This document shows, one piece after another, positions 87 to 31,001 of a DNA stretch of 49,443 bases. How positions within the stretch are numbered: the stretch's first letter is position 1; every line of letters starts with the position of its first letter. The notes beneath the pieces were generated by a model, which saw nothing but the letters and a program-made list of their open reading frames with translations, had not been told where the DNA came from and did not search any database. Source of the DNA: Faecalibacterium sp. An121 (GTDB taxonomy: Bacteria > Bacillota > Clostridia > Oscillospirales > Ruminococcaceae); NCBI RefSeq assembly GCF_002160915.1, contig NZ_NFLM01000019.1:1-49443 (forward strand), read 5' to 3'. The position numbers were made by a program, and so were the translations under genes.

Positions 87-128
87 GACTAGAGCGACTT
101 CTTCTTTTGGGTCCAGGGGGCCGCGCTC

Positions 129-244
129 AGCGCGTCCTGTCCTCTTGCGCTTAGCCGGTTTTCGCAAGCGGGGCTTGGCCCGCTCTGCGAAAATCGGAGC
201 GCTGCGCCAGCCGCATCTTCGCTGCTTCGTCCACAGGACGCGCT
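129..244. repeat. Structured repeat element, copy 1
   Basis: An outer stem AGCGCGTCCTGT (129-140) pairs perfectly with ACAGGACGCGCT (233-244). Inside is CCTCTTGCGCTTAGCC (141-156), a 39-nt hairpin (157-195), then GGAGCGC-T-GCGCCA (196-209) and a CGTCC/GGACG hairpin. The GCGCT before and the AGCGC after the 39-nt hairpin also pair. The same order of parts occurs at 451-551 with a different hairpin sequence, so this is one family of RNA or DNA secondary structure. The strand of transcription, if any, is unknown. Confidence 0.65.
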
Positions 245-283
245 CGACGCGGCTGCCCTGGTCGTCGAGGGTGGGTAGGGAGT

Positions 284-332
284 CCAGAGGGGGTAGGGCG
301 GGACCGTCGAAAGTCCCGCCCTCCCCCTCTGG
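284..332. repeat. 20-bp GC-rich hairpin
   Basis: Bases 284-304 pair with 313-332 over 20 base pairs with one bulged T, around an 8-nt loop. It lies between the two copies of the structured repeat. It has no T tract, so it is unlikely to be an ordinary terminator. Confidence 0.6.
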
Positions 333-400
333 CCCCAGCGGGCAGCGTCCAGAGCGGGCAGCGTCCGCAGACCCTGCGTTTTGTTAGTTCCCTTACAAAG

Positions 401-593
401 TGCATGATTTGCATGATTTGAATGATTTTCTCAGGGTAGAGAAAATGAATCCTCTTGCGCTTAGCCAATTTTTCCGGCGCATCAAGGATGATGCTTGTAA
501 AAATTGGAGCGCGGCGCCACTCACGGCTCCCTGTTTCGTCCGCAGGACGCGGTCGCCGTTCGTGTAAATCATGCATTTCATTCAAATCATGCA
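401..593. repeat. Structured repeat element, copy 2
   Basis: The outer stem TGCATGATTTGAATGA (410-425) pairs perfectly with 578-593. A further TGCATGATT at 401-409 can pair with 567-575. A small hairpin follows (426-448). The core CCTCTTGCGCTTAGCC (451-466), 39-nt hairpin (467-505) and GGAGCGC-G-GCGCCA (506-519) match copy 1 part for part. The 39-nt hairpin has the same length as in copy 1 but mostly different bases that still pair. The right end TTCGTCCGCAGGACGCG matches copy 1 with one change. Confidence 0.65.
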
Positions 594-727: not shown

Positions 728-847
728 CATCGGGTAAAGAAAGCAGCTACGGCCATGCCGCGCTCGCCTTGCGGGTCCCTTGAGAGGCCCCGGGCTATAC
801 AGGACGCAAGCTCTCTGCAAGGAGGGCGTGCTGAGTGTGTATCTGTG

Positions 848-880
848 CGCGGCTGCCTTGGATGAGGCGGCCGCGTTTTC
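848..880 (+). terminator. infC leader attenuator hairpin
   Basis: CGCGGCTGCC (848-857) pairs with GGCGGCCGCG (866-875) over 10 base pairs, one of them G-U. The loop is 8 nt and GTTTTCTGTT follows. It is an intrinsic terminator inside the leader, 33 nt before the infC start. In Bacillus and other Firmicutes this operon is autoregulated by L20 through leader termination; the same scheme is inferred here. Confidence 0.75.
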
Positions 881-912
881 TGTTGACATTATTGTTTGGA
901 GGTGCATCGACA

Positions 913-29004: not shown

Positions 29005-29314
29005 TCAAAAATACAAATGCGTTGAAGGGGATAAAACGGGTCCTTCCCGCTTGCAGAGAGCCGCCGGTCGGTGTAAGGCGGCGCGGGTGTTTCCGGTTAC
29101 TGGCCCCTGAGCGGCAGAGCTGAACGGCCATTCCCCAGTAGGCTCTGACGGATGCCCACCGTTACAGGGGCAGCGATTCGCCCCCGGCGGCTGATCGTGT
29201 GAGTGGCCGCATCATCTGCGGCAAAGAGAGTGGTACCACGGGACCGCCTTGTATCGACTTACAGGCTCTCGTCTCTCAAAGGCTTTGGTCCTTTGAGCGA
29301 CGAGAGCCTTTTTC
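29005..29314 (+). promoter_or_regulatory. Leucine T-box riboswitch leader
   Basis: The T-box reads uncharged tRNA-Leu and lets transcription pass into leuA. Stem I shows the AGAG-type bulge (29055-29060) and the terminal loop GGTGTAA (29070-29076), matching GGUGNRA. The lower helix AGGGG/CCCCT (29026-29030 with 29104-29108) and the helix AAC/GTT (29035-29037 with 29096-29098) border a loop whose 3-prime side holds the specifier CTG (29100-29102), a leucine codon. The T-box sequence TGGTACCACGG starts at 29231; its TGGT would pair with the ACCA end of tRNA-Leu. The terminator at 29263-29314 competes with the antiterminator. Confidence 0.93.
29263..29314 (+). terminator. T-box terminator
   Basis: AGGCTCTCGTC...CTCAAAG pairs with CTTTGAG...GACGAGAGCCT, over 18 pairs with one mismatch, around a short loop, followed by TTTTT. 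It is the regulated terminator of the leucine T-box. Confidence 0.93.
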
Positions 29315-29348: not shown

Positions 29349-31001
29349 ATGATGGACGCCACCAAGTACGCACCCGGATACTACCCCGCCCCTGCCGGCT
29401 ACGACAGCTGGGTCAAAAAGGATCATATCGAAACGGCTCCCGCCTTTTGCAGCGTGGACCTGCGGGACGGCAACCAGGCCCTGATCGTACCCATGAGCCT
29501 GGAGGAAAAGATCGAGTTCTTCAAAATGCTGGTCAAGATCGGCTTCAAGGAGATCGAGGTGGGGTTCCCCGCCGCCAGCGAGACCGAGTATGAATTTCTG
29601 CGGGTGCTGATCGAGCAGAACATGGTGCCGGAGGACGTCACCCTCCAGGTGCTGACCCAGTGCCGCGACCACATCATCCGCCGCACCTTCGAGGCGGTCA
29701 AGGGCGCGCCCCGGGCCGTGATCCACTTCTACAACTCCACGTCGGTGGCCCAGCGGGAACAGGTGTTCCACAAGTCCAAAGAGGAGATCAAGCAGATCGC
29801 CACCGACGGCGCCCGGCTGGTCAAGCAGCTCAGCCAGGAGTACGAGGGCAATTTCCTGTTTGAGTACAGCCCCGAGAGCTTCACCGGCACCGAGCCGGAC
29901 TACGCGCTGGAGGTGTGCAATGCGGTCATCGACATCATGGAGCCCACCCCCGACCGCCCCATGATCATCAACCTGCCGGTGACGGTGGAGATGAGTATGC
30001 CCCACGTCTACGCCAGCCAGATCGAATACTGCTCCAAGCACCTGCACAGCCGCGACAGCGTCATCCTCTCCACCCATCCCCACAACGACCGCGGCACCGG
30101 CGTAGCCTGCGCCGAGCTGGCGGTGCTGGCGGGCGCCCAGCGGATCGAGTGCTGCCTGTTCGGCAACGGCGAGCGCACCGGCAACGTGGACGCCATCACC
30201 CTGGCTCTGAATATGTACAGTCACGGGGTGGACCCCAAGCTGGATTTCTCGGATATGCCCGCCATCTGCGAGGTGTACGAGCGGGTCACCCGGATGCACG
30301 TCTATGAGCGGACCCCCTACGCCGGGCAGCTGGTGTTCGCGGCCTTCTCGGGCAGCCATCAGGACGCCATTGCAAAGGGGATGAACTACCGCAAGGCCAC
30401 CGGCGAGCACCGCTGGACCTGCCCCTATATCCCCATCGACCCCCACGACATCGGCCGCACCTACGACGCCGACGTCATCCGGATCAACAGCCAGAGCGGC
30501 AAGGGCGGCATCGGCTTTGTGCTGGAGCAGAACTACGGCTACAACCTGCCCCCCAAGATGCGGGAGGACCTGGGCTACAAGGTCAAGGCCGTGTCCGACC
30601 ACAGCCACAAGGAGCTGTCCGCCGCAGAGGTCTGCCGCATCTTTGAACAGCAGTATCTGAACAAGGAAAAGCCCTTCAACGTCAAGGAGGCCCACTTCAT
30701 CCAGAAGAGCGGCATCACCGCGTCGGTCACCCTCGAGATGAACGGCGCCACCCGCGAGGTGGTCTCGATCGGCAACGGCCGTCTGGACGCGGTGGCCAAC
30801 GCCATCCAGACCGCCACCGGGATGGACTTCCACCTGGACCAGTATTCGGAGCACAGCCTGGACGGCGGCTCCACCTCCCGGGCCGCCAGCTATGTGGGCC
30901 TGGTGTGGAACGACGGCACCACCACCTGGGGCGCCGGCACCGATACCGATATCATCGTGGCGGGCATCCGGGCGCTGGTGTCGGCCATCAACAACAAATA
31001 A
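29349..31001 (+). CDS. leuA: 2-isopropylmalate synthase
   Basis: LeuA condenses 2-oxoisovalerate with acetyl-CoA, the first committed step to leucine. The protein is 550 residues, the longer LeuA type. The catalytic TIM barrel has DLRDGNQAL (37-45) and the metal histidines His243 and His245 in STHPHND, plus LFGNGERTGNVDA. A C-terminal regulatory domain (about 425-550) is the site of leucine feedback in the family. The ribosome-binding site CAGGAGGT precedes two adjacent ATGs (29349 and 29352). It is controlled by the T-box upstream. Confidence 0.95.
   Translation: MMDATKYAPGYYPAPAGYDSWVKKDHIETAPAFCSVDLRDGNQALIVPMSLEEKIEFFKMLVKIGFKEIEVGFPAASETEYEFLRVLIEQNMVPEDVTLQVLTQCRDHIIRRTFEAVKGAPRAVIHFYNSTSVAQREQVFHKSKEEIKQIATDGARLVKQLSQEYEGNFLFEYSPESFTGTEPDYALEVCNAVIDIMEPTPDRPMIINLPVTVEMSMPHVYASQIEYCSKHLHSRDSVILSTHPHNDRGTGVACAELAVLAGAQRIECCLFGNGERTGNVDAITLALNMYSHGVDPKLDFSDMPAICEVYERVTRMHVYERTPYAGQLVFAAFSGSHQDAIAKGMNYRKATGEHRWTCPYIPIDPHDIGRTYDADVIRINSQSGKGGIGFVLEQNYGYNLPPKMREDLGYKVKAVSDHSHKELSAAEVCRIFEQQYLNKEKPFNVKEAHFIQKSGITASVTLEMNGATREVVSIGNGRLDAVANAIQTATGMDFHLDQYSEHSLDGGSTSRAASYVGLVWNDGTTTWGAGTDTDIIVAGIRALVSAINNK

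Follow-up and report, generated by a model that had tools for sequence, protein, structure and literature searches.

Near the start of the window, the whole 49,443-nucleotide stretch of Faecalibacterium sp. An121 analysed here (contig NZ_NFLM01000019.1), lie two copies of an element of approximately 115 nt that folds into two hairpin domains. Copy 1 spans positions 141–255 of the plus strand (94.5 bits with model R2; left boundary ±1–4 nt), and copy 2, the same two-domain element, spans 451–564 of the plus strand (92.9 bits). Both copies had been described in an initial annotation, and their positions and parts were confirmed. They share CCTCTTGCGCTTAGCC (141–156 and 451–466), followed by a 39-nt block (157–195 in copy 1; 467–505 in copy 2), the motif GGAGCGC-N-GCGCCA and a CGTCC/GGACG hairpin (228–240 and 537–549, respectively).

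Architecture of the two copies

Domain 1 is laid out as GCGCT, a 3-nt bulge, CC, a variable hairpin, GG and AGCGC. In copy 1, it occupies 147–202 (+), where the closing helix (147–151/198–202) is followed by the 3-nt bulge and the variable hairpin (155–197); in copy 2, it occupies 457–512 (+), with the closing helix at 457–461/508–512 and the variable hairpin at 465–507. Domain 2 comprises a variable stem of approximately 10 bp, an internal loop and the CGTCC/GGACG hairpin. It covers 208–255 (+) in copy 1 (variable outer stem 208–217/246–255; inner hairpin 228–232/236–240) and 518–564 (+) in copy 2 (outer stem 518–527/555–564, here partly broken; inner hairpin 537–541/545–549). Three pairs of the 39-nt block were originally reported as compensated between the copies: pairs 1–39 and 7–33 do change on both sides, whereas pair 2–38 changes from G-T to A-T, on one side only.

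The perfect outer stems reported around the copies are present (129–140/233–244 and 410–425/578–593), but do not belong to the element proper. The 12-bp stem of copy 1 results from a truncated inverted repeat of the element's own right half (120–140, minus strand), which is 86% complementary to 233–253. The 16-bp stem of copy 2 is that of a different repeat, AT-rich and palindromic, which hosts the copy, with a left part at 398–450 and a right part at 565–596, each containing one perfect arm. This host repeat was also found without the element at two places in another locus of the same genome (L145). Copy 1 is further flanked by a CCAGGG arm on its left (113–118) and a CCCTGG arm on its right (256–261); by eye, the two arms together resemble the GGGTCCAGGG..CCCTGGTCG hairpin context, of which loci L058 and L060 have empty versions.

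An unrelated strong palindrome, GGGGTAGGGCGGGAC / GTCCCGCCCTCCCCC, lies between the copies at 284–332. Positions 1–72 of the window are identical to the terminal part of a second An121 contig (C42, L007); a repeat or an assembly overlap is therefore the probable cause of the contig break. Comparison of positions 100–620 with phage and plasmid records returned no match. Further downstream, a sub-threshold match to the ribosomal protein L20 leader (735–888, plus strand; 26 bits against a gathering score of 58.7, E 0.01) directly precedes infC-rpmI-rplT-like open reading frames (ORFs), and a T-box leader (29013–29279, plus strand; 102.6 bits, above gathering) lies before the ORF at 29349–31001.

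Copy number and distribution

The motif CTCTTGCGCTTAGCC occurs in the An121 genome 10 times exactly and 16 times with at most two mismatches, compared with 2 for the reversed control. A pattern scan of named genomes gave at least 115 stretches, and among the matches listed, 80 of 80 were from Faecalibacterium, several of them poultry-named. Model R1, which was built from 50 copies, found 25 matches in the An121 genome at E ≤ 0.01 (24 at E ≤ 0.001), one of the 25 being the reverse strand of copy 1. The model search proposed for related genomes was successful: R1 matched 29 of 31 genomes of the genus, An121 included, and the richest held at least 94 (G023), 81 (G021), 65 (G016), 59 (G009) and 50 (G003) matches, these being lower bounds because just 120–150 candidates were scored per genome. 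R1 found no match in G019 or G020.

At family level, R1 matched 16 of 148 genomes, An121 among them. Model R2 matched 115 of 394 genomes at order level, 44 of 391 at class level and 3 of 398 at phylum level, one of the last (G1305) from outside the class; An121 is included in each count, the order, class and phylum samples overlap, and the R2 E-values are rough owing to a short calibration. The reading as a dispersed, palindromic mobile repeat is supported by the many copies, the candidate empty sites and the strong covariation described below, but its restriction to 'this lineage' was too narrow, as the family spans the class. No description of the element was found in the literature searched, including PMC3733652 and PMC12306157; ISfinder, bioRxiv and most subscription papers lay outside that search.

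Among other genera, tandem pairs of the element stand approximately 200–330 nt apart in L193, L196, L163, L171 and L169. One copy in the An121 genome (L001, contig C4) appears by eye to be a mosaic, in which the 5′ and 3′ arms of domain 1 seemingly derive from different subfamilies. A Gut-1 RNA (RF01706) lies at 128–202 (minus strand) of L211, approximately 70 nt from an element copy.

Gene context and tRNA genes

According to a home-made gene finder, all 128 copies examined lie outside predicted genes. The 90 copies with both neighbours fall into 36 convergent, 43 tandem and 11 divergent gaps, compared with 67, 343 and 95, respectively, among 505 background gaps. The element is therefore richer between convergent genes, and rarer between divergent genes, than the background. 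Within tandem gaps, 21 copies lie on the same strand as the genes and 22 on the opposite strand, making the orientation neutral.

The surroundings of copies from the family and order searches were inspected for tRNA genes at 40 loci, one per genome, of which only L208 belongs to the genus; L169, L188 and second copies were left out. A tRNA gene lies within 300 nt at 24 of these 40 loci. For copies in Faecalibacterium, the corresponding count is 2 of 112, compared with 89 of 5000 random places. When four loci from the class and phylum searches were added, 20 of 44 loci had an opposite-strand tRNA gene within 350 nt on one side. At 14 of the 20, a second copy of the 3′ part of the tRNA, starting from the anticodon arm or the T arm, stands 1–15 nt past the far end of the element; on the tRNA side, 10–22 nt of the arm recur in inverted orientation and end 5–21 nt from the element. 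The tRNAs concerned are those for Ser, Met, Pro and Trp.

This count of 14 in 20 was made without a null; in a separate null with a 99% score of 13, the direct repeats that were scored lay above that value, except in L192, and some of the inverted copies did not. The direct repeat is merely 11–17 nt in L192, L200 and L203, and is missing at 6 of the 20 loci. Some of the genomes are related (L190–L192; L200/L203), so there are fewer events than loci, and copies beside tRNA genes may have been inherited vertically. In a second group (L193, L201, L210, L155 and, more weakly, L207), a 5′ fragment of the tRNA is found instead. Beside ten copies from other genera, no transposase or integrase gene was recognised by eye from the heads of the ORFs. 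At L165, a direct repeat of approximately 105 nt beside the element spans the 3′ end of tRNA-Ser and the next terminator-like hairpin.

Insertion sites and surrounding repeats

For the analysis of insertion sites, copies less than 150 nt from a fetched end were dropped, leaving 128; copy 1 of the window was among those dropped, being too close to the contig end, and so falls outside the empty-site test. Of 93 distinct copies with a structure-defined end, 91 were compared with the fetched loci, and 55 had a candidate empty site with both flanks adjoining. At least four of the 55 (queries in L122, L046, L105 and L044) are, by eye, the element itself in tandem, and most of the remainder repeat one context, their flanks being 76–100% alike. 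The candidate empty sites are consequently paralogous rather than orthologous. The best pair, L058 (filled) and L085 (empty), has flanks that are 97% identical over 68 nt and 100% identical over 70 nt.

The right junction is recurrently TG|C(C), and the left end approximates NTC-CTCTTGCG with a variation of 1–4 nt, which limits how exactly any insertion point can be placed; no long target duplication was seen at the candidate empty sites (all by eye). One context (GTAAAAC..CTTTGC) hosts different subtypes at the same position, which suggests a hot spot. Many copies may have been carried as cargo by the repeats that surround them. One copy lies in a repeat with ends like TAGGGTGTATCTGA (L008; also noted in L004), of which an element-free version exists in L040; by eye, this repeat appears to be MITE-like.

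When the two flanks of a copy were joined, 4 of 81 junctions formed a stem of at least 6 bp (permuted mean 1.2, maximum 5), and the mean stem was 2.62 compared with 2.37 after permutation, a value reached in 11 of 500 permutations. Insertion into hairpin loops was set aside as a general rule: there are a few striking pairs, but the signal over the 81 junctions is weak.

Fold and covariation

Both copies in the window fold more stably than shuffled sequences, with z-scores of −5.6 (plus strand) and −4.7 (minus strand) for copy 1 and −4.1 and −6.7, respectively, for copy 2. Two copies alone are too few to establish covariation, which rests instead on 50 aligned copies (alignment A1). Compensated double changes occur there in 17 of 33 pairs; conserved letters in A1 are partly forced by the search pattern. 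In alignment A2, which holds 150 of 165 matches (139 distinct), 771 cells carry double changes, whereas shuffles have 242; its covariation score of 0.411 compares with at most 0.060 when slid. Two alignments that span genera gave scores of 0.617 (A3; at most 0.134 in slid controls) and 0.609 (A4; at most 0.128 in slid controls). In A4, which was drawn from model searches, 23 of 29 pairs are doubly changed, so the covariation anticipated by the initial annotation is supported both within the 50 copies and across genera. Further pair types in A4 showed no excess (60 compared with 62.7 in shuffles), and both A2 and A4 were fitted to their own models. A4 nevertheless keeps the letters TTGCG, T, A, CGC, GC and CT, together with CC/GG in the inner hairpin.

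Near-identical copies, with 1–4 differences (40 sequence pairs, not independent), differ by 19 one-sided stem changes and 1 two-sided change, and two-sided changes build up as copies diverge. This pattern would fit point mutation followed by compensation in spreading lineages; simultaneous correction of both arms is not supported as the main source of the covariation.

These changes bear on an explanation that requires no dedicated mobility. Surrounding repeats, together with replication template switching at palindromes, would carry the copies about, and the same switching would make the arms complementary. In its favour are nested and tandem arrays, mosaic arms, the arms duplicated in inverted orientation next to copy 1 and to the copies at tRNA genes, and stems that are mostly Watson–Crick. 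The one-sided differences between very similar copies argue against it, as do the unpaired letters and identical ends that different genera share although the contexts are unrelated, and we consider this explanation unlikely, albeit the strongest of the alternatives.

DNA or RNA

Of 4414 stem cells in the 139 distinct rows of A2, 4188 are Watson–Crick, 50 G-T, 44 A-C and 132 other; the 103 distinct rows among the best 112 have 3259, 13, 33 and 88, respectively. At columns 17/89, a position outside the model, A-C occurs 27 times and G-T 8 times. The 1909 stem cells of A4 comprise 1793 Watson–Crick, 7 G-T, 23 A-C and 86 other. G-T pairs thus make up 0.4–1.1% of stem cells and are about as numerous as A-C pairs or less so; the stems of A2 and A4 showed no bias of either strand towards G-T. 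By comparison, G-T accounts for 8.3% in the stems of 38 tRNA genes at the same loci; ARAGORN brackets list pairs only, so A-C is not comparable. Neither strand would appear to act like a functional RNA, and the A-C excess in some sets would correspond, if anything, to G-U on the minus strand.

Searches of Rfam at the gathering score found nothing over the element in the window or in 20 loci from other genera. At E up to 10, only weak matches lay over the copies, to Scr6925 (E 2.9) and SAM-SAH (E 6.3). A likeness of the minus strand to an HDV-like ribozyme, suggested by CTAAG before a helix, was discarded, since the bulge letters differ between subfamilies.

The proposal of a dispersed structured RNA, either a small RNA or a cis-acting untranslated element under selection for its RNA fold, would account for the strong covariation and for stable predicted folds on both strands. 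It might also explain an arrangement that is frequent outside the genus (14 loci), with the minus strand beginning 63–151 nt downstream of a tRNA gene on the same strand. The scarcity of G-T relative to tRNA stems, the neutral orientation towards tandem genes and the lack of an Rfam match at the gathering score nevertheless make it improbable, and this part of the initial annotation was not supported. Selection on folding fits the data, but the fold is apparently that of DNA rather than that of RNA.

Known systems and the search for an enzyme

As a kind, palindromic interspersed repeats are already known, and several systems invite comparison. REP/BIME repeats, and REPINs with their RAYT, are likewise high in copy number, palindromic, located outside genes (128 of 128 copies here, with 11 of 90 in divergent gaps compared with 95 of 505 in the background), arranged in mosaic arrays and gene-less. 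In contrast, REPs measure 20–40 bp, whereas the element is approximately 115 nt, has two domains and has stems that are free in sequence. No unpaired GTAG tag, a REP feature, was visible by eye in the A4 consensus; unlike the unpaired CGTC tag of REPs, the CGTCC of the element, in copies that have it, forms part of the inner hairpin stem, where other copies have CTGCC, CATCC or CCGCC.

Like MITEs, the element is small, non-coding, dispersed and nested in other repeats, but by eye it lacks the terminal inverted repeats and the consistent target duplication of at least 3 bp of a MITE or DDE transposon. Rickettsia palindromic elements are of similar size, spread by an unexplained mechanism and insert into genes; the element shares their palindromic nature and approximate size, but all 128 of its examined copies lie outside predicted genes. 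Integron attC sites vary in sequence, conserve a folded strand, are recognised at the DNA level and carry end boxes. The element likewise combines variable sequence with a conserved folded strand, but it has two hairpin domains, and attC end boxes are not visible by eye in its consensus. Location outside genes is the one feature that the element has of those tested for REP/RAYT, MITE, IS110 and retroelement systems.

The Y1 transposase domain (PF01797) is absent from the An121 genome and from G003, G009, G021 and G023, which are four of the five richest genomes, with assemblies 80–92% complete. It is present in 11 of 31 genomes of the genus, G016 having just a fragment with a stop. In those four rich genomes, there is also no IS110 transposase (PF01548), of which G016 and G006 each have two and An121 has one. 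Reverse transcriptase (PF00078) is absent from the same four and from G006 and G022, and present in G000 and G016; An121 and G016, the third richest genome, hold both IS110 and reverse transcriptase. Integrase domains (PF00589) occur in 10 of 10 genomes, including G019 and G020, which have no element matches, and in 14 of 14 controls. Tyrosine recombinases are the sole family of the four present in each of the ten genomes examined for all four and are a possible candidate, although the occurrence of phage integrase, being universal here, is uninformative. By eye, no transposase that might mark an autonomous version was found among the ORFs of two small, repeat-rich contigs of the An121 genome, and viral contigs scanned with one neighbouring protein held no relative.

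Movement of a REP/BIME-like repeat by a RAYT or another Y1 (HUH) transposase would suit a high-copy palindromic repeat outside genes, with mosaic arrays, few copies between divergent genes and no clear target duplication, but is doubtful in the extreme given the distribution of the domain, including its presence in G019 where the element has no match, and the missing GTAG tag.

Proposed mechanism and implications

The element is probably a small, non-autonomous mobile DNA of approximately 115 bp, gene-less, whose identity lies in its two-hairpin fold. It is proposed that a recombinase acting in trans would recognise the folded element, either as a strand or as a cruciform, and insert it, usually directly 5′ of CC, at or beside existing palindromes. 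These would be tRNA arms across the class and other palindromic repeats in Faecalibacterium. Copies would decay after insertion, and further spread would be confined to source copies still able to fold, which could give rise to the covariation.

More tentatively, the element may represent a class-wide family of Clostridia, gene-less and recognised as a folded strand, which lands on the arms of tRNA genes, duplicates the 3′ part of the tRNA and leaves the same arm again in inverted form, by an enzyme and a mechanism that have not been described. In Faecalibacterium, it may have escaped to other palindromes, reaching at least 94 matches in one genome.

From covariation alone, the element would be filed as a structured RNA. 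The scarcity of G-U on both strands, despite strong covariation, offers a way to separate covariation at the DNA level from that at the RNA level. The positions at tRNA arms, with a duplicated 3′ part and an inverted arm, provide a repeated and testable signature of a mobility mechanism distributed over a class to which major gut bacteria belong.
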